Of a stretch of 60,223 nucleotides of DNA, positions 2,716 through 17,432 are shown one piece after another; the first letter of the stretch is position 1, and every line of letters starts with the position of its first letter. The notes below the pieces were generated by a model. That model saw only the letters and a list, made by a program, of their open reading frames with translations, was not told the DNA's origin and ran no database searches. The stretch comes from Deltaproteobacteria bacterium (lineage in GTDB: Bacteria > Desulfobacterota > GWC2-55-46 > UBA9637): positions 1 to 60,223 of the forward strand of contig JACRNJ010000011.1 in NCBI GenBank assembly GCA_016219285.1, in the 5' to 3' direction. The position numbers were made by a program, and so were the translations under genes.

Positions 2716-3738
2716 TTATAGCAGGTCTATCTCTTTATGCGTCTCTTCAATTTGGATATGGGCGTAATGACGGGTCGTTACGTCTACGCTTGAATGCCCA
2801 AGGTATTTACTAATAAGATAAACCGAGACGCCTTTTTTCAGCAGATGACTTCCGAACGTCTCCCGCATGGTCTGGATGCTTATGTGTTTTAACCCTGCTG
2901 CCATGACAACCTTCTGTAATTCCCTGTGGAAGTTATTTTTCCACGGCACACCAGATTTTGTCGGAAATACAAACCGGCCATTGCGGGGCAACCCAATCAA
3001 CACATCCTTAAGTTTTTGATTGAGAGGGATAATTCTTTCTTCACAATCCTTTACTCTGTTTTCTGGTTTAGAGCGCACAAGCACAATGCCCTTGTCAAAA
3101 TCCACATCGTCCCACTCCAAAAAAATGAGTTCGTTCTTTCTCATTCCAAGATAGTACGCTGACAAGATGATAGGGTGTAGGTGAGGGTAATGTGTCTTTG
3201 CGGTTTCTAATAATTTATATACTTCTTTAAAAGACATATCCCTAAAAATCTTTTTTACCGGTTTAACCTTTTTTACTCCTGCGGCTGGGTTTGTTCGGAG
3301 ATAGCCTTTCCTAATGGCGTTATTAAAGAAGGTCTTTACGACTTTTAAATCTTTATTGGCGCCAGCTATGGTCTTTTTGAGGCGCATTTCGTAATAAGCT
3401 TCCATGGTTCGCAGGGTTATGTAATCAAGTCTTTGCTCGCGGCCATCAAGGTATGAGCGGAACCTGTTTAATGCTCCTATCTTCTCCTTTACAGTCTCGG
3501 CAGCTTTGCCAATATTGCCCCGTTCGAGATATTCTTTTATAGCATCGTTGAGATCACGCTTGATTGTCAGCAGCGTTGAATGATGAGTCTCTTTTGCTTC
3601 AAGGGTCTGGTATTCGGACAGGAGTATTCTTGCGGCATCCTTTGCCGTCACCTTCAAGGATTTCTGAACTGGCCTGCTATTCTCTATATAGCCAACCCAC
3701 CAGAAACGGGATTTTGCTCGCTTAAAAATATATGCCAT
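2716..3738 (-). CDS. Tyrosine recombinase / phage-type integrase
   Basis: A 340-residue site-specific recombinase: N-terminal SAM-like DNA-binding region (about 60-150) and C-terminal catalytic domain. Catalytic residues visible are Arg in 'YYLGMRKNELIFLEW', Arg in 'TMRETFGSHLL', His in 'YLGHSSVDVT' and the nucleophile Tyr in 'TRHYAH'. The usual HxxR histidine is replaced by Gln (QTMR). Its gene lies about 150 bp from the 3' end of tRNA-Met, a common attachment site, so it is likely the remnant of an element integrated in that tRNA. No second tRNA 3' copy was noticed, so the element's limits are unknown. Confidence 0.85.
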   Translation of the reverse strand: MAYIFKRAKSRFWWVGYIENSRPVQKSLKVTAKDAARILLSEYQTLEAKETHHSTLLTIKRDLNDAIKEYLERGNIGKAAETVKEKIGALNRFRSYLDGREQRLDYITLRTMEAYYEMRLKKTIAGANKDLKVVKTFFNNAIRKGYLRTNPAAGVKKVKPVKKIFRDMSFKEVYKLLETAKTHYPHLHPIILSAYYLGMRKNELIFLEWDDVDFDKGIVLVRSKPENRVKDCEERIIPLNQKLKDVLIGLPRNGRFVFPTKSGVPWKNNFHRELQKVVMAAGLKHISIQTMRETFGSHLLKKGVSVYLISKYLGHSSVDVTTRHYAHIQIEETHKEIDLL

Positions 3739-3740
3739 AT

Positions 3741-3760
3741 AATGTCAGTAGAATGTCAGT
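3741..3760. promoter_or_regulatory. Tandem 9-bp repeat in front of the integrase gene
   Basis: Two direct copies of AATGTCAGT with an 11-bp period sit immediately upstream of the integrase ATG, where a ribosome binding site would be. One helical turn of spacing suits a regulator or integrase arm site. Function is inferred only. Confidence 0.3.
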
Positions 3761-3836
3761 TATAGAAGTGATTTTAAATGAATTTATGGGAATTATAGGG
3801 AAGTAGCAGGAAGATGTCAAGAATATTTATTTGCAC

Positions 3837-3859
3837 AAAACACCTTGATATTTAAGGTG
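3837..3859 (-). terminator. Terminator-like hairpin downstream of tRNA-Met
   Basis: On the minus strand CACCTT, a 7-nt loop and AAGGTG are followed by TTTT, 29 bp past the tRNA 3' end. The stem is short, so it would be a modest rho-independent terminator. Confidence 0.45.
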
Positions 3860-3887
3860 ATTCCAACGATATTAAGGGGTTATATAT

Positions 3888-3963
3888 TGGTGGCGGTGCG
3901 TGGACTCGAACCACGGACAAAGGGCTTATGAGACCCTTGCTCTGCCACCTGAGCTACACCGCC
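3888..3963 (-). tRNA. tRNA-Met (anticodon CAT), CCA encoded
   Basis: Minus-strand cloverleaf: acceptor GGCGGTG/CACCGCC with a G1-C72 pair, D stem GCTC/GAGC, anticodon loop CTCATAA in an AGGGT/GCCCT stem, T arm CGTGG-TTCGAGT-CCACG, discriminator A and an encoded CCA. The G1-C72 pair argues for elongator Met, or for Ile2 if the wobble C is lysidinylated, rather than initiator Met. An integrase gene follows its 3' end. Confidence 0.95.
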
Positions 3964-9381: not shown

Positions 9382-11202
9382 TTACATCTCAATCCTTGTA
9401 ACCACACCATGAAGCTTGTTTGCCGGGAGTTTGTAGAACTTGACGAAGGTAGGGGTAAGTTTTTTAATAACAGAAAATATCTTCCAAACGAAGTTTGAGG
9501 TTGTTATATCTTCAAGGCCATAGAATATTGTCTTTTCATTTATTCCTGCCTTTTTCAATATCTCTTCAAGGTCAAACAATTCCATATATCCTGCCTGAAT
9601 CACAAACGCTCTGAGTCCTGGGGCAAATTCGCCTTTAAAAGAGCCTGAGACGCCAAATGGCTCGTTTGATATAATGAGTGTAAAGAGGATATTGTCCTCG
9701 TATATAATATTATTTCTAAACATCGTATGTATTATATATGGATGGACCACATTTGTGCTTCTTGTAAAAAAAAGCGCAGTGCCTCGTATCCTCCAACATT
9801 CCCGATATATTTGGTTATAGCTTGTAAGGAAGGTATCCATGTCCAGGGGGCGAAGCGCCCTATAGAGCCTTTTCTGCCCTTTTGTGTAAATAATAATCAT
9901 AACAAACGGGACTGCGGCTATGACAATAGACCAGTAGCCGCCGTGTGGAATTTTATACATGTTTGAAATAAGAAATATGATATCAACCAACGTAACGATG
10001 GCTGCAACAGAGGCCTTTACATATCTGTGCTTTAGATAGAATATCCATGTCATCATGATGCCGGTAATGGTCATGGTTCCTGTTACTGCAAGGCCGTATG
10101 CTGCGGCAAGACGCGCAGATTCCTTAAATTCAATCATGATGAAGATAACGGAAATGAGCAGGAACCAGTTGACCGCCGGTATGTATATCTGAGACCTTAT
10201 CTCACGTGATGTGTAATCTACCTTAAACATGGGGAGGATATGGGTTATAATCCCCTGATACACTACCGAGAACATGCCGCTTATCATTGCCTGTGATGCT
10301 ATCACTGTGGCTGTGATGCTTAAGATAAGAAATGGTATGTAGAGTATCTGCGCCTGGCTGAATATCATTTCAAACAGGACATTCTTGGCCTCAGGGTGTC
10401 GGATGAGAAATGCCCCCTGCCCGAGATAGTTGAGCGTGAGGGCGATAAATACAAAATACCACGCCCTTACGATGGGCAGCCTTCCAAGATGCCCCATATC
10501 TGCATATAGCGCCTCGCCGCCTGTGGCGCACAAGATTACCTCTGAAAGGACAAAGAAACCCACAATCCCGTTATGCGTCATAAACTGCACCGCGTAGTAT
10601 GGATTGACAGCCTTGAGCACGGACGGGGCATGGCTTATGGACATTACGCCGGAGATGGTCAAAACTATAAACCAGACCAGCACTATAGGCCCGAACGCCG
10701 ATGCCACCTTTCCTGTCCCTTTTTTCTGAAATGCAAAGAGAATAAAGGCGATGGCGCCTGCAATAAAGATGAGGGTGTCGGGAGTTGTTGATTCAAAACC
10801 CGGTATAAGGAGAACCCCTTCAACTGCGCTTAAAATACTGATTGCAGGGGTGATGACGCCGTCGCCTACAAGAAGTGATATTCCAATAAAGGAAAGGAGC
10901 GAAACAAAGGCCGCCTGTCTGCCTGATTTAAGGAATCTGACGAGCAATTCCTTCAAAACAATAGTTCCCCCCTCCCCCTTTCTGCTGAGGCTTGTGGCAA
11001 GCCATGCATACTCTACGGTTACGAGTATTATAAGCGTCCAGACAATGAGAGAGAGTATGCCTATGATATTGGTTTCTGTAGGTTTTGTAATTAGGAAGAT
11101 GACCGTGAGCGTATAGATTGGGCTTGTGCCTATGTCTCCAAAGACAACGCCGAGGGAATTTATTATTCCTTTGACAGGATGGTTGTTACCTCTATCAGGC
11201 AT
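9382..11202 (-). CDS. kup: Low-affinity potassium uptake protein Kup
   Basis: Proton-coupled K+ importer of the inner membrane (KUP/HAK/KT family). The N-terminus has the family signature 'LGVVFGDIGTSPIYTL', followed by about 12 hydrophobic helices (residues 15-450) and a cytoplasmic C-terminal domain of about 150 residues. Other conserved blocks: 'RKGEGGTIVL', 'GDGVITPAISILSAVEG', 'CATGGEALYADMGH'. At 606 residues it has standard length. Followed 13 bp upstream by ppa on the same strand, so the two may be co-transcribed. Confidence 0.95.
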   Translation of the reverse strand: MPDRGNNHPVKGIINSLGVVFGDIGTSPIYTLTVIFLITKPTETNIIGILSLIVWTLIILVTVEYAWLATSLSRKGEGGTIVLKELLVRFLKSGRQAAFVSLLSFIGISLLVGDGVITPAISILSAVEGVLLIPGFESTTPDTLIFIAGAIAFILFAFQKKGTGKVASAFGPIVLVWFIVLTISGVMSISHAPSVLKAVNPYYAVQFMTHNGIVGFFVLSEVILCATGGEALYADMGHLGRLPIVRAWYFVFIALTLNYLGQGAFLIRHPEAKNVLFEMIFSQAQILYIPFLILSITATVIASQAMISGMFSVVYQGIITHILPMFKVDYTSREIRSQIYIPAVNWFLLISVIFIMIEFKESARLAAAYGLAVTGTMTITGIMMTWIFYLKHRYVKASVAAIVTLVDIIFLISNMYKIPHGGYWSIVIAAVPFVMIIIYTKGQKRLYRALRPLDMDTFLTSYNQIYRECWRIRGTALFFTRSTNVVHPYIIHTMFRNNIIYEDNILFTLIISNEPFGVSGSFKGEFAPGLRAFVIQAGYMELFDLEEILKKAGINEKTIFYGLEDITTSNFVWKIFSVIKKLTPTFVKFYKLPANKLHGVVTRIEM

Positions 11203-11215
11203 GATTTATTATATT

Positions 11216-11743
11216 TTATTTCCTGTATCTTTGTCTGGCCTCTTTAATAATCTTGATGGCTGATTTGCGGTCTTCCCAGCCTTCAACACCAGTTTTTTTC
11301 TTTTCCAAATCCTTGTATACTGAGAAAAAGTGTTCTATTTCCTTGAGTAAATGCGGAGGGACATCCTTGAGGCTGTTTATATGGTTCCAAAATGGGTCAA
11401 AGATCGGCACACATAATATTTTCTCGTCAGGGCCTTTTTCATCCCACATTTTGAAGAGTCCGACAGGTTTTGCCTCTATAAAACAACCGGGGAAAGTAGG
11501 CTCCCAGACAAGCACAAGGGCATCAAGCGGGTCGCCGTCCTTGGCAAGGGTTTTAGGTATAAAACCGTAATCGCTCGGATAATGGACAGCGGAAAATAAC
11601 ATGCGGTCAAATTTGATAACTTTTCGTTTTTTGTCATATTCATACTTATTGCGGCATCCCTTGGGGATTTCTATCATGACTGACACTGTAATAGAGTCAG
11701 CGTGCTTTTTTACTGACAATTTAATCTCCAATACTATAGTCAA
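11216..11743 (-). CDS. ppa: Inorganic pyrophosphatase (family I)
   Basis: Cytoplasmic Mg2+-dependent hydrolysis of pyrophosphate. Active-site blocks: 'IEIPKGCRNKYEYD', 'HYPSDYGFIPKT' and the metal-binding 'DGDPLDALVL' signature, then 'DEKILCVPIFDP' and 'HFFSVYKDLE'. At 175 residues the length is typical of bacterial enzymes. The first 15-20 residues are less typical, and the real start may be the ATG before 'IEIPKG' or nearby. Directly upstream of kup on the same strand. Confidence 0.93.
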   Translation of the reverse strand: MTIVLEIKLSVKKHADSITVSVMIEIPKGCRNKYEYDKKRKVIKFDRMLFSAVHYPSDYGFIPKTLAKDGDPLDALVLVWEPTFPGCFIEAKPVGLFKMWDEKGPDEKILCVPIFDPFWNHINSLKDVPPHLLKEIEHFFSVYKDLEKKKTGVEGWEDRKSAIKIIKEARQRYRK

Positions 11744-11920: not shown

Positions 11921-13921
11921 TTAAGAGGCCTTGATCCTCTCTACAACCTTTGAAATAGAATCTTTTGCGTCGCCAAAGAGCATACGGGTATTTTCATACA
12001 AATACAATTCATTATCTATGCCTGCGAATCCTGGTTTCATACTCCTTTTGCAGACAATCACTGTCTTTGCCTTATCAACATCCAATATTGGCATACCATA
12101 AATTGGGCTCTTCTTATCATGTCGCGCAGCCGGATTAGTTATATCATTAGCGCCAATTACCATAGCGACATCAGTCTCTGGAAATTCATGGTTTATTTCT
12201 TCCATCTCTATCAAATCAGTATAAGGCACGCCTGCCTCGGCCAAAAGCACATTCATGTGGCCGGGCATTCTTCCTGCAACAGGATGTATGGCATATTTAA
12301 TTGAGATATTTTTTTCTTTGAGCATTTCGGCAAACTCGCCTACGACATGCTGGGCCTGCGCCGCTGCCATACCATAGCCTGGCACTACAATGACTCTCTT
12401 TGCATTTTTAAATATATTTACGGCTTCCTCAACTGAAACCTTTTTAACCAGAGGCTGTCCGCTTGCTGTCTCTTCCGCAGGCTGTGCTGTAGGAACGGCT
12501 TTAAGGTTTGGGTCTTTAAGCCCGCTTACAACTTTTGCTATGGAATCTTTAGCGTCTCCAAAGAGCATACGGCAGCTTTTATGTAAATACAGATCATTAT
12601 CTATTCCTGCAAATCCGGGCTTCATGCTTCTTTTGCACACTATAATGGTTTTTGCCTTATCTACATTCAGTATCGGCATTCCGTAAATAGGGCTTTTCTG
12701 GTCATGCCGTGCCGCCGGATTTGTGATGTCATTTGCGCCTACAACAAGGGCTATATCAGTTTCTTGAAATTCAGGATTGATTTCATCCATTTCAATAAGG
12801 TCTGTGTAAGGTATGCCGGCCTCGGCCAAAAGCACGTTCATATGCCCTGGCATTCTTCCTGCAACAGGATGTATGGCATATTTAATTGAGATATTTTTTC
12901 CTTTAAGTATTTCGGCAAACTCACCTACGACATGTTGAGCTTGCGCCGCTGCCATACCGTAGCCGGGCACTACAATGACTTTTTTTGCATTCCTGAAAAG
13001 TAGCGCAGCCTCTTCATGGGTAATCTTTTTTACAGCAGGCTTATCATCAACAACTGCTGTTTTTGCCATTGCTGCGGCAGGCGTTTTTAACGGGGCAGTG
13101 GCGGATTCAGCCGGCTGCTGTCCAAAGCCTCCGAAAAATACATTTGCTGCAGAACGGTTCATAGCCTTGCACATAATAAGTGAAAGTATAAGGCCTGAAG
13201 CGCCGTCAAGGGCGCCGGCTATAATCAAGACCTTGTTTGAAAGCACAAAACCGGTAGCTGAAGCAGCAAGGCCGGCATATGCATTTAGAATAGAAATGAC
13301 AACAGGCATATCTGCTGCGCCAATCGGCATAACAAGCATAACGCCGAATGCAAAGGCAAATATCATCATTATATAGAAAAGGATAGATGCCTGCGGCACA
13401 AATGTCAGGTAAATTATAATACCCACTATGCCGGCAAGGAGAGAGAGATTTACAAAATTCTGACCTTTATACATCCAGGGGCCTTTAATAGTGTCGTGAA
13501 GTTTTGCCGACGCAATTAAACTTCCGGTAAAGGTCAGGCAGCCCAGCATTACCTCTGCCCCAAGGGCTACCATGGTTATTGTGTCAAGTTCTCCGGCATG
13601 CCGGTAATATTCTGAAACGCCAACAAGGGCCGCTGCGAGCGCGCCAAAGGCATGGGAGAGAGCTATTCGCTCCGGCATAGCCGTCATAGGAACCCACAGG
13701 CCAAGAGGGATACCGATTATCGTGCCTATGACAAGTCCTGCTACAACCCATTCATAACTTATAATATCGTGGTGTATCAATGTGCCTAATACGGCAATCA
13801 ACATGCCTATTTCGGCCAAAAGCACGCCGCGACGCGCAGTTTCAGGCGAATTCAATAATTTCAAAGACAGGATAAAGGCTATGGATGCCAGAAGGTATGC
13901 AAATTCAATAAAGTGATTCAT
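11921..13921 (-). CDS. pntB: NAD(P) transhydrogenase subunit beta with duplicated NADP-binding domain III
   Basis: Inner-membrane proton-translocating transhydrogenase subunit. Residues 1 to about 265 are the membrane domain II. A normal PntB then has one NADP(H)-binding domain III; this one has two in tandem (about 297-470 and 493-666) joined by a Pro/Ala-rich linker. Each copy retains 'VVPGYGMAAAQAQ', 'AGRMPGHMNVLLAEAG', 'GANDITNPAARHD' and 'KRSMKPGFAG', so both could bind NADP. The 666-residue length compares with about 460 normally. Parts of the two copies are identical in DNA for tens of bases, indicating recent duplication or gene conversion. Its start overlaps the end of pntA2. Confidence 0.95.
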   Translation of the reverse strand: MNHFIEFAYLLASIAFILSLKLLNSPETARRGVLLAEIGMLIAVLGTLIHHDIISYEWVVAGLVIGTIIGIPLGLWVPMTAMPERIALSHAFGALAAALVGVSEYYRHAGELDTITMVALGAEVMLGCLTFTGSLIASAKLHDTIKGPWMYKGQNFVNLSLLAGIVGIIIYLTFVPQASILFYIMMIFAFAFGVMLVMPIGAADMPVVISILNAYAGLAASATGFVLSNKVLIIAGALDGASGLILSLIMCKAMNRSAANVFFGGFGQQPAESATAPLKTPAAAMAKTAVVDDKPAVKKITHEEAALLFRNAKKVIVVPGYGMAAAQAQHVVGEFAEILKGKNISIKYAIHPVAGRMPGHMNVLLAEAGIPYTDLIEMDEINPEFQETDIALVVGANDITNPAARHDQKSPIYGMPILNVDKAKTIIVCKRSMKPGFAGIDNDLYLHKSCRMLFGDAKDSIAKVVSGLKDPNLKAVPTAQPAEETASGQPLVKKVSVEEAVNIFKNAKRVIVVPGYGMAAAQAQHVVGEFAEMLKEKNISIKYAIHPVAGRMPGHMNVLLAEAGVPYTDLIEMEEINHEFPETDVAMVIGANDITNPAARHDKKSPIYGMPILDVDKAKTVIVCKRSMKPGFAGIDNELYLYENTRMLFGDAKDSISKVVERIKAS

Positions 13922-14211
13922 TTTTTCTTACCCCTCTTAAACATTTTTAACATGCGGTCGGTTATCAAAAATCCTCCTACTACATTTATAGTGGCGCATA
14001 TTACTGCCACAAAGCCGAGAATTGTGCTTAGCGGGTTGTAATGCGCGCCAGCGGCAACAAGGGAGCCTACCAAAGAGATGCCTGAAATTGCATTTGTTGC
14101 CGACATGAGAGGTGTGTGGAGGAGCGGCGGAATCCGTGTGATTACCATGTAACCGACAAAGGCCGCCAGTATAAATACATATAGCCCCATAATGAGTGTT
14201 GATGTTTCCAT
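13918..14211 (-). CDS. pntA2: NAD(P) transhydrogenase subunit alpha, part 2 (membrane)
   Basis: A 97-residue membrane protein with three hydrophobic helices ('GLYVFILAAFVGYMVI', 'ISGISLVGSLVAAG', 'ILGFVAVICATINVVGGF') corresponding to the C-terminal membrane part of E. coli PntA, encoded separately as in many non-enteric bacteria. The conserved 'IPPLLHTPLMSATNAISGI' is present. It overlaps pntB by an ATGA-type junction, so coupling is likely. The overlapping ORF at 13937-14227 is a shadow. Confidence 0.93.
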   Translation of the reverse strand: METSTLIMGLYVFILAAFVGYMVITRIPPLLHTPLMSATNAISGISLVGSLVAAGAHYNPLSTILGFVAVICATINVVGGFLITDRMLKMFKRGKKK

Positions 14212-14562: not shown

Positions 14563-15765
14563 TTACCAATGGCTTCTGGTAGTGGGTCCGTTTGGGTAAG
14601 CGGTATCTCCTTTTTTTGCGCCTTCTTTTACGCCCTGATGCATAATCTCGCCGTTATGGGTAATAAGAGAGCCTTTGATTATTTCATCCGAGAGATTCAG
14701 ATTGATGCTCTGTTTGTCCGGCGCAAGCAGGTGATTTAAAAAAGTAAGTATATTATTAGCATATAGCTTGCTTGCGTGTACAGGCAACATACTGGGGAGG
14801 TTTACTGCGCCGATAATGGTTACATTGTTCTTAACTACCTCTTTGCCCAGTTCAGACAAGGCGCAATTGCCTCCCTGTTCAACAACAAGGTCTACGATGA
14901 CTGAGCCGGGTTTCATCTCTTTTACCATTTCTTCAGTTATAAGTGTTGGCGCTGGTTTCCCAGGCACAAGGGCGGTGGTAATAATAATATCAGCATCTTT
15001 GGAATGTTTACGGATTATCTCCTGCTCCTGTTTATAGAAGTCTGATGACAACTCTTTTGCATAACCGCCGGCATCTTCTGCCTGGTCATGAGGAACATCT
15101 AACGGAACAAATTCAGCGCCAAGGCTTCTTATCTGTTCACCCACAGCCGGGCGGGTATCAAATGCCGTTACAACAGCGCCGAGCCTTTTTGCCGTGGCTA
15201 TTGCCTGCAGGCCTGCTACACCGGCGCCAATTATGACAGCCTTTGCCGGATGAACAGTTCCTGCAGCGGTTGAAAGCATTGGAACAAATCTTTTAAGACT
15301 GTTTACCGCCAGCAGTACGCTCTTGTATCCCGCAACAGTGCTCATTGAACTTAAGGCATCCATCATCTGCGCCCTGGATATTCTGGGAATTGCATCCATG
15401 GAAAATGCAGTAATCTTTGTGTCAGCCAGCTTAAGCACTACATCAAGATTGGTCATGGGCTGTAAAAAGGTTATAAGCACAGCCCCTTGTTTCATCATAT
15501 CAGCTTCATGTTTTTTTACCTTGTCGTTTAGATACGGTTTTTGCACCTTAAGTATCACATCAGATTCGCCAAAAATCTTCTCTACATCAGCTACAATATT
15601 TGCCCCGGCCTTTGCATACTCTTCATCATGTATGTATGATGCCAACCCAGCCTCGGCCTCAACGGCCACATTCAAGCCAGCCTTTACCATCTTGGCTACA
15701 GTGTCAGGGACAGCAGCAACACGGCACTCATTTGGAGCGGTCTCTTTAGGAATCCCAATAAACAT
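14563..15765 (-). CDS. pntA1: NAD(P) transhydrogenase subunit alpha, part 1 (NAD-binding)
   Basis: Soluble domain I of the proton-translocating transhydrogenase, related to alanine dehydrogenase. It binds NAD(H) and exchanges hydride with domain III of PntB. Visible: N-terminal 'IGIPKETAPNECRVAAVPDTV', Rossmann loop 'VIIGAGVAGLQAIATAKRLGA', and the mobile-loop region near 'LITHNGEIMH' at the end. At 400 residues its length is normal for the split form. The gene follows a ZTP-riboswitch-like leader and a good Shine-Dalgarno (AAGGAGGTAAATATG). Confidence 0.95.
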   Translation of the reverse strand: MFIGIPKETAPNECRVAAVPDTVAKMVKAGLNVAVEAEAGLASYIHDEEYAKAGANIVADVEKIFGESDVILKVQKPYLNDKVKKHEADMMKQGAVLITFLQPMTNLDVVLKLADTKITAFSMDAIPRISRAQMMDALSSMSTVAGYKSVLLAVNSLKRFVPMLSTAAGTVHPAKAVIIGAGVAGLQAIATAKRLGAVVTAFDTRPAVGEQIRSLGAEFVPLDVPHDQAEDAGGYAKELSSDFYKQEQEIIRKHSKDADIIITTALVPGKPAPTLITEEMVKEMKPGSVIVDLVVEQGGNCALSELGKEVVKNNVTIIGAVNLPSMLPVHASKLYANNILTFLNHLLAPDKQSINLNLSDEIIKGSLITHNGEIMHQGVKEGAKKGDTAYPNGPTTRSHW

Positions 15766-15837
15766 ATTTACCTCCTTGTATTTACAGGTAATAAAAAAAC
15801 CATCTTGGCTTCCAAAAAAGACCTTAAAATCTCTCTT

Positions 15838-15920
15838 TTTTGCCCAGACGGTCGGCTTATATTTATATCTTGCGTTTCCCGGTGGTTGCCACCTTAATTC
15901 CGTCAGTTACGAAAGATTTA
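15838..15920 (-). ncRNA. ZTP (pfl) riboswitch-like leader upstream of pntA1
   Basis: Minus-strand RNA: P1 ATCTTtCGT / ACGcAAGAT, the conserved 'AACTGACGGAA' segment, P2 GGTGG-caa-CCACC directly followed by GGGAAACG, then a variable linker and 'GCCGACCGTCTGGGCA', matching the pfl-motif ending CCGCCTGGGCA with one C-to-T change. The class senses ZTP/ZMP, signals of 10-formyl-THF shortage. A weak A6GA...TCT6 pairing and U-rich runs (15790-15840) lie between it and the pntA1 start and could be the expression platform. Recognition is by eye. Confidence 0.7.
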
Positions 15921-15933
15921 TGTATGTGCATGC

Positions 15934-15962
15934 TTATTACATCATAAGCTTACTAAAGTCAA
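15934..15962 (-). promoter_or_regulatory. Candidate sigma70 promoter of the pnt operon
   Basis: Minus strand TTGACT, 17-bp spacer, TAATAA, placed about 15 bp upstream of the riboswitch-like leader. The -35 is good, the -10 is weak. Confidence 0.4.
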
Positions 15963-16001
15963 GAGAGGATTTATCCCAAAACCCTAAAGCGGATTTTGTG
16001 A

Positions 16002-17432
16002 TTATTCAACCCATTTATTGGCAATATCAGCATAATATCCAGGCGCTTGGTTTTCAAAGGTTGTAAATTCATCTAAAAATGTCAGCTTTACCGGACCGAT
16101 AGGGCCGTTGCGCTGTTTTGCCACAATAATCTCCGCATCTTTTGCAATCCTACTCCTCTCACAACTGCACGGCTGCGTCATTTTCAATTCTTCTGGGCAC
16201 TTGCAAGGCGTATAAACCACTTCCCTGTAAACAAAGGCTACAACATCTGCATCCTGTTCAATGGCTCCGGATTCTCTAAGGTCTGCTAATTGCGGCCTCT
16301 TTTCTTCTCTCCTCTCCGGCATTCTGGAGAGCTGAGCAAGCGCTACCACCGGCACATTAAGCTCCTTTGCCATAGCCTTTAGAGACCTTGAAATATCCGA
16401 AATCTCCTGCTCCCTATTGTCTGCATCGTGTCTGCCCCTCATAAGCTGAAGATAATCCACTATAACCAGTTTTATGCCGTGCTGCTTTGTAAGCCGCCTT
16501 GTCTTTGCCTTTATCTCAAGCACGGATTGCGCAGGTGTATCATCTATAAATAGAGGGGCCTCATGCAGGCTGTCAACCGCTCTGATGAGTCTGCTCCAAT
16601 CCTCATCCCTTAACTTTCCGTTCCTCAACCTATGAAGGTTGACTCTTGCCTTGGAGGCAAGCAGTCTTTGGGCAAGCTGCTCTTTGCTCATCTCAAGCGA
16701 GAACACTGCCACAGGATTGCCTGCATCGGCCGTGCTCTGGGCAATATTCAGACAAAATGCCGTCTTGCCCATGCTGGGTCTTCCGGCAATAATAATAAGG
16801 TCTGCAGGCTGCAAGCCTGATGTAAGCTCATCAAACTTGTCAAAGCCTGTCGGCACGCCTGTAATATTGCTAGTCCTGCCAGAGAGCCCTTCAATGGCCT
16901 TAAAGACGCCTGTAACTAAATCCTTGATAGGATAAAAAGATTGTTTTGTCTTGTCTTCTGCGACATCAAATATTATCTTCTCAGCATCGTCAAGAAAATC
17001 ATCTATTTTTTCTTTGCCGTCATAACACCTTGTTATTATTTCTGTGGAGGCATTTATAAGCTTTCTTAACAGGGCCTTCTCCCTCACTATTTTCGCATAG
17101 TAGGCTATATTCGCAGCAGTAGGTGTGGATTCTATAAGTGCGGCCAGATATGAGCTTCCGCCTATAGATTCAAGCGCGCCCATGTTTTTAAGAGCGGCTG
17201 ACAATGTTACAAAGTCTATGGGCTCGTTTTCTTTCTCCCTGAGAGAGAGCATGGCCTTAAATATTTTTTTGTGGGCATCCCTGTAAAAATCTTCGCCGCT
17301 TTGCTCTAATATGCCGATAACCTTATTAATGGCATCATTTTCGATAAGGATGGCCCCAAGGATAGACTGCTCTGCATCAATATTTTGCGGAGGGAGCTTG
17401 TGAAGGGATAAATCTTGCGCTGGAAGTGCCAT
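16002..17432 (-). CDS. dnaB: Replicative DNA helicase DnaB
   Basis: Hexameric ATP-dependent helicase of the replication fork. Residues about 10-110 are the N-terminal DnaB domain ('LPPQNIDAEQSILGAIL'), followed by the RecA-like domain with Walker A 'IIAGRPSMGKTAFCLN', H2 'VAVFSLEMSKEQLAQRL', Walker B 'KLVIVDYLQLMRG' and 'SRSLKAMAKELNVPVVALAQLSR'. At 476 residues with no intein. It lies downstream of rpsF-rpsR-rplI in the common order, separated from rplI by a palindromic element. Confidence 0.96.
   Translation of the reverse strand: MALPAQDLSLHKLPPQNIDAEQSILGAILIENDAINKVIGILEQSGEDFYRDAHKKIFKAMLSLREKENEPIDFVTLSAALKNMGALESIGGSSYLAALIESTPTAANIAYYAKIVREKALLRKLINASTEIITRCYDGKEKIDDFLDDAEKIIFDVAEDKTKQSFYPIKDLVTGVFKAIEGLSGRTSNITGVPTGFDKFDELTSGLQPADLIIIAGRPSMGKTAFCLNIAQSTADAGNPVAVFSLEMSKEQLAQRLLASKARVNLHRLRNGKLRDEDWSRLIRAVDSLHEAPLFIDDTPAQSVLEIKAKTRRLTKQHGIKLVIVDYLQLMRGRHDADNREQEISDISRSLKAMAKELNVPVVALAQLSRMPERREEKRPQLADLRESGAIEQDADVVAFVYREVVYTPCKCPEELKMTQPCSCERSRIAKDAEIIVAKQRNGPIGPVKLTFLDEFTTFENQAPGYYADIANKWVE

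Follow-up and report, generated by a model that had tools for sequence, protein, structure and literature searches.

A ZTP riboswitch before a proton-translocating transhydrogenase operon, and its apparent place among lineage-wide leaders of reductant and reductive-carbon genes

ZTP riboswitches are commonly regarded as sensors of folate stress that control purine and one-carbon genes. The published targets of the class (RF01750, the pfl motif) are of these two kinds, with moeA as one exception (PMC2864571, PMC7266159, PMC9481103). In the ZMP-binding riboswitch of F. ulcerans, a pseudoknot pair is occupied by A18 and U68, and G17, G63, C69 and G71 contact the ligand (PMC11419147); a terminator formed from the P3 strand is the published ON-switch design (PMC7337938). 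A literature search that excluded the class-defining paper of Kim et al. 2015 returned no ZTP/ZMP riboswitch tied to transhydrogenase, Rnf or isocitrate dehydrogenase.

Here we describe a leader in a 60,223-nucleotide stretch of deltaproteobacterial DNA, analysed as a whole and called the window below. It resembles the RF01750 representatives of F. ulcerans and T. carboxydivorans in its fold, pseudoknot, contact residues, P3-strand terminator and predicted ON switching, but differs from them in its target, which is a proton-translocating transhydrogenase operon that also encodes a pyrophosphatase and potassium uptake. Within its known riboswitch class the element is ordinary apart from an unusual target, and what appears to be new is the pnt target together with the lineage-wide target set.

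The original prediction of a ZTP-riboswitch-like leader was borne out by an Infernal search, in which RF01750 matched over its full length (1-86) at 15835-15920 on the minus strand, scoring 62.6 bits where the gathering score is 39 (E = 8.5e-8 for the whole window and all 4227 Rfam families). A model built from the host class, which includes the window sequence, gives 95.7 bits. The aptamer is the sole RF01750 match above threshold in this 99%-complete genome. The pfl-type motifs follow one another on the minus strand as predicted (P1, AACTGACGGAA, GGTGG/CCACC, GCCGACCGTCTGGGCA). The span proposed for the element, 15790-15962, does cover the leader, but is wider than the aptamer and came without a strand.

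The structural elements of RF01750, namely P1, P2, P3 and a pseudoknot from J1/2 to the P3 loop, are all present on the minus strand, as is the ACTGACGG junction. P1 spans 15869-15915 (15915-15909 pairing with 15875-15869), P2 is the GGTGG/CCACC helix at 15881-15893, assigned from the Rfam match and the class alignment, and P3 is the hairpin GCCGACCGTCTGGGC at 15842-15856. The P3 loop CCGUC (15851-15847) pairs with GACGG (15904-15900). In an alignment of 42 distinct host-class members, with helices and pseudoknot written out, all five GACGG/CCGUC pairs are kept and identical in 42/42 members, and all seven pairs of P1 change on both sides. Across the alignment, 98.2% of cells are paired, changes on both sides are observed at 9 pairs (4.2 expected in shuffles), and sliding the partner positions reduces pairing to below 50%. 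By every available sequence and structure test, the window element is a ZTP riboswitch.

Letters corresponding to U16, G17, A18, G63, U68, C69 and G71 of the F. ulcerans riboswitch (PMC11419147) are found in the window, the correspondence being set by motif reading rather than by structural alignment. The ZMP-contact residues among them (U16, G17, G63, C69 and G71) are invariant across the 42-member alignment, and we infer that ZMP/ZTP is the ligand. The Rfam consensus pseudoknot is GGCGG/CCGCC, whereas the host class has an A-U pair where the consensus has G-C. This class-wide difference, and the distance of host-class leader genes from purine and folate genes, could be explained by a specificity variant, in which a ZTP-like fold senses another metabolite, such as a redox or energy nucleotide. 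Such a variant is very improbable, since the ZMP-binding F. ulcerans riboswitch has the same A18-U68 arrangement (PMC11419147) and shares the ligand residues, the contact residues are invariant, and two leaders with the same A-U pair (L158 and L160) precede fhs, a canonical ZTP target.

The gene dnaB (stop at 16002) precedes the leader and pntAA (ATG at 15765) follows it, all on the same strand. Its expression platform, missing from the original prediction, is an intrinsic terminator at 15793-15852 (minus; -23.4 kcal/mol, z -3.73, the fold energy computed on segment 15855-15788), whose 5' arm consists of the P3 loop and 3' strand (ACCGUCUGGGC) and whose 3' arm, GCCAAGAUGGU, is followed by a U run. 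The platform competes with P3, as the terminator reuses the P3 strand. In a pseudoknot-free folding program, the 157-nt full leader without ligand favours the terminator. The ribosome-binding site of pntAA, AAGGAGG (15771-15777, minus, by sequence reading), is downstream of the terminator. Six other pnt leaders have a terminator of the same type, whose 3' arm varies in sequence yet remains able to pair with P3, and the energies range from -20.7 to -30.4 kcal/mol.

A promoter had also been predicted before the leader. A -35-like hexamer, TTGACT, is indeed read at its 5' end (15957-15962, minus), but no good -10 follows at 16-18 nt, and a promoter scan reported no site at 15962-15957. In four relatives (G006, G024, G042 and G043), TTGACA is read at the matching place with -10-like sequences, which makes a promoter at the 5' end of the window leader plausible. 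An antisense open reading frame at 15323-16066 (plus) runs opposite to pntAA, the leader and dnaB, all of which it overlaps, and was rejected as mechanical.

The predicted position before a transhydrogenase operon holds, and the gene order, all on the minus strand, is pntAA-pntAB-pntB-ppa-kup. The transhydrogenase alpha subunit is encoded in two parts, pntAA (14563-15765; NF006942, 440 bits, above cut-off) and pntAB (13918-14211; C-terminal part of NF006942, 1.2e-30), and the beta subunit by pntB (11921-13921; PF02233 in two matched stretches, and NF006974). These are followed by the inorganic pyrophosphatase gene ppa (11216-11743; NF002317, 1.1e-50) and the potassium uptake gene kup (9382-11202; NF008015, 1.9e-118), presumably the last gene of the operon, whose extent is predicted. 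In G001, from the same genus, kup itself directly follows a leader that is orthologous to the window leader from the -35-like box through the terminator, in support of kup as the final gene; G001 yielded no true PntAA. In window PntB the C-terminal NADP-binding domain occurs twice, and PntB proteins of 666-675 aa with this duplication are encoded in the window and also at L124, L125 and L182. None of the five genes is the purine or one-carbon target that is usual for RF01750 without defining it, and a published exception (moeA, PMC9481103) means that such genes are no argument against membership.

True PntAA is encoded in 15/63 host-class genomes, and the leader precedes pnt in five of these 15 (G000, the window genome, and G006, G024, G042 and G043), with ppa between leader and pntAA in G024 and G042. 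The group-wide assignment excluded PntAA-like matches of about 100 bits and about 33% identity as probable alanine dehydrogenases; the NCBIfam alaDH model also matches PntAA weakly. A relic before pntAA was sought in eight leaderless genomes, and none was found. A wider search with the class-built leader model, covering 80 named genome records retrieved with a PntAA alignment, re-found the leaders in the G024 and G043 records and added two Nitrospirota records with a leader before pntAA (L182 and L183), giving seven genomes, five host-class and two Nitrospirota. In the PntAA tree the seven leader-bearing sequences fall into two groups; three changes of state are needed, and strongly supported branches force at least two. 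Recurrence in seven genomes shows that the link between ZTP leader and transhydrogenase is real and no chance placement. In L182 (Nitrospirae nzgw272), consecutive ZTP leaders (336-421 and 2832-2916) lie about 2.5 kb apart, one before an NfnA/NfnB-like pair and the next before pntAA-AB-B, placing two transhydrogenases behind the same sensor.

In three ZTP leaders (L122, L124 and L125) 110-181 nt separate J1/2 from P3. With P3 at this distance, the long-linker pnt leaders of G024, G042 and G043 score below the Rfam cut-off, and their P3 and terminator were found by sequence reading. Long-linker ZTP leaders are likely to be under-annotated.

Elsewhere in the window genome, a ZTP relic lies before icd-acl (L256; G000:C7:84011-84097, minus), where the P1 5' strand and TTGCAACTGACGGAATCAAGGTG are kept, decay follows, and P3 and the terminator are lost. 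Its 18.5 bits (genome-wide E 0.36) are weak alone, but relatives have an intact leader exactly at this position, which makes the relic credible. As read from these remains, the window genome has retained its pnt switch while its icd switch has eroded. The erosion, together with rearrangements of leader and neighbours such as the G001 leader directly before kup, could also suit a non-regulating ZTP leader, orphaned or rearranged, that gene shuffling left before pnt. That account has very little going for it, as the pnt leader, unlike the eroded icd leader, is intact throughout and has kept its terminator and ribosome-binding site, and leader and pnt occur together in two pntAA clades.

To survey the targets of the lineage, the sequence following 95 ZTP matches from relatives was taken, which with the window makes 96 host-class leaders; first genes were identified with NCBIfam and Pfam. 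The largest group, 34/96, begins with isocitrate dehydrogenase or ATP-citrate lyase (monomeric NADP-isocitrate dehydrogenase 32, dimeric isocitrate dehydrogenase 1, ATP-citrate lyase subunit 1), followed by rnfC (27/96) and a BhcA-like class V aminotransferase with serA behind it (19/96). Smaller groups precede pnt (5/96; pntAA 3, ppa-pnt 2), a CPA2 cation/H+ antiporter (5/96) and sucC (4/96, two of these loci continuing into 2-oxoacid:ferredoxin oxidoreductase), and the remaining two lead to kup (1/96) and to a contig end (1/96). Neither purH, fhs, folD nor glyA is the first gene behind any of the 96. The icd-acl and rnf leaders have an aptamer nearly identical to that of the window and the same invariant pseudoknot, but serve reductive-carbon and ferredoxin/NAD targets, and it is the icd leader that the window genome has lost. 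The leaders before the CPA2 monovalent cation:H+ antiporter (L046, L078, L087, L092 and L094) belong to one genus; with kup, they make cation transport a recurring ZTP target.

Outside the host class, leaders of the same phylum precede fhs and glyA (by sequence reading), and also aminotransferase and serA genes. They have the same aptamer, and the fhs leaders share the A-U pseudoknot pair, but their targets are canonical one-carbon or serine genes. Nitrospirota leaders precede pnt, nfn and HdrC-like, EtfB-like, NuoE/HoxE-like and formate-dehydrogenase-like genes; the NuoE-like ones may just as well encode subunits of formate dehydrogenase, which would be a canonical one-carbon link. A formate-dehydrogenase-like gene has its start codon close to a ZTP aptamer (L267 1500-1604, G471) with no obvious terminator, where control may be translational.

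The window leader is apparently part of a regulon, shared across the lineage, that serves the supply of reductant and reductive carbon. This regulon is not fixed, as a single leader is intact in the window genome and that of icd is decayed. The original prediction had instead connected the transhydrogenase, through NADPH, to FolD-type reactions, with the same leader to be looked for before folD and fhs. A genome-wide search, purH included, found no such leader in the window genome. PurH (C23) and formate-THF ligase (C22) are both encoded there without a leader, and a search for a leader or relic at purH and fhs gave at best 11.1 bits, which is chance level. Supply of NADPH to folate reactions, with pnt as an accessory one-carbon gene, would suit a ligand class that reports 10-formyl-THF shortage (PMC7266159), and would fit the fhs, glyA and serine-gene leaders elsewhere in the phylum and the common aminotransferase-serA leaders of the host class. 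It is nevertheless unlikely, given that the window genome has no folD, fhs or purH leader and that icd/acl and rnf dominate a host-class target set completed by aminotransferase-serA, antiporter, sucC and pnt. In addition, more NADPH pushes FolD away from 10-formyl-THF, so that, if Pnt makes NADPH, the effect would run in the wrong direction to relieve the shortage signalled by ZTP. The data are better read as a wider ZTP regulon that serves reductant and reductive carbon metabolism.

With the aptamer, pseudoknot, terminator overlap, gene order and recurrence established by computation, the leader is very probably a ZMP/ZTP-sensing transcriptional ON switch for pntAA-pntAB-pntB-ppa-kup and part of this lineage-wide regulon. 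Because the terminator reuses the P3 strand, ligand binding should turn the operon ON by preventing termination, and we infer the same direction in the cell. Without ligand, the P3 3' half (CCGUCUGGGC) would pair with GCCAAGAUGG, and transcription would end at the next U run. PurH, the enzyme that consumes ZMP, is present in 58/62 host-class genomes, and ZMP/ZTP would be expected to rise when 10-formyl-THF limits it. The accumulated ligand would lock the GACGG/CCGUC pseudoknot and block the terminator, so that the operon is transcribed and Pnt, pyrophosphatase and potassium uptake are most likely raised.

On the reductive-carbon side, the regulon would comprise NADP-isocitrate dehydrogenase with ATP-citrate lyase, and succinyl-CoA ligase with 2-oxoacid:ferredoxin oxidoreductase; on the electron-carrier side, Rnf, Pnt and, in Nitrospirota, also Nfn; serine synthesis would be a further branch. 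The co-regulation of NADP-dependent Icd beside ATP-citrate lyase and of serine genes suggests that cells respond to a lack of one-carbon units or purines by raising the supply of reductant and fixed carbon. It is an even bet whether, in these uncultured lineages, ZMP/ZTP acts more broadly as a global signal for reductant and carbon-fixation capacity that ties purine and one-carbon status to NADPH and ferredoxin supply, with one riboswitch class in direct control of icd-acl (reductive TCA), Rnf, Pnt, Nfn and serine synthesis. With 96 class-wide leaders that mostly serve isocitrate dehydrogenase/ATP-citrate lyase, Rnf and transhydrogenase, ZTP would have a part in carbon fixation and redox supply as well. 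This gives a prediction that can be tested directly in lineages represented here mostly by metagenome-assembled genomes, namely that readthrough ahead of pnt, rnf and icd depends on ZMP.

Separately, a tyrosine-recombinase-like integrase is encoded next to a tRNA gene in the window (2716-3963, minus), and the two likely mark the integration site of a mobile element.
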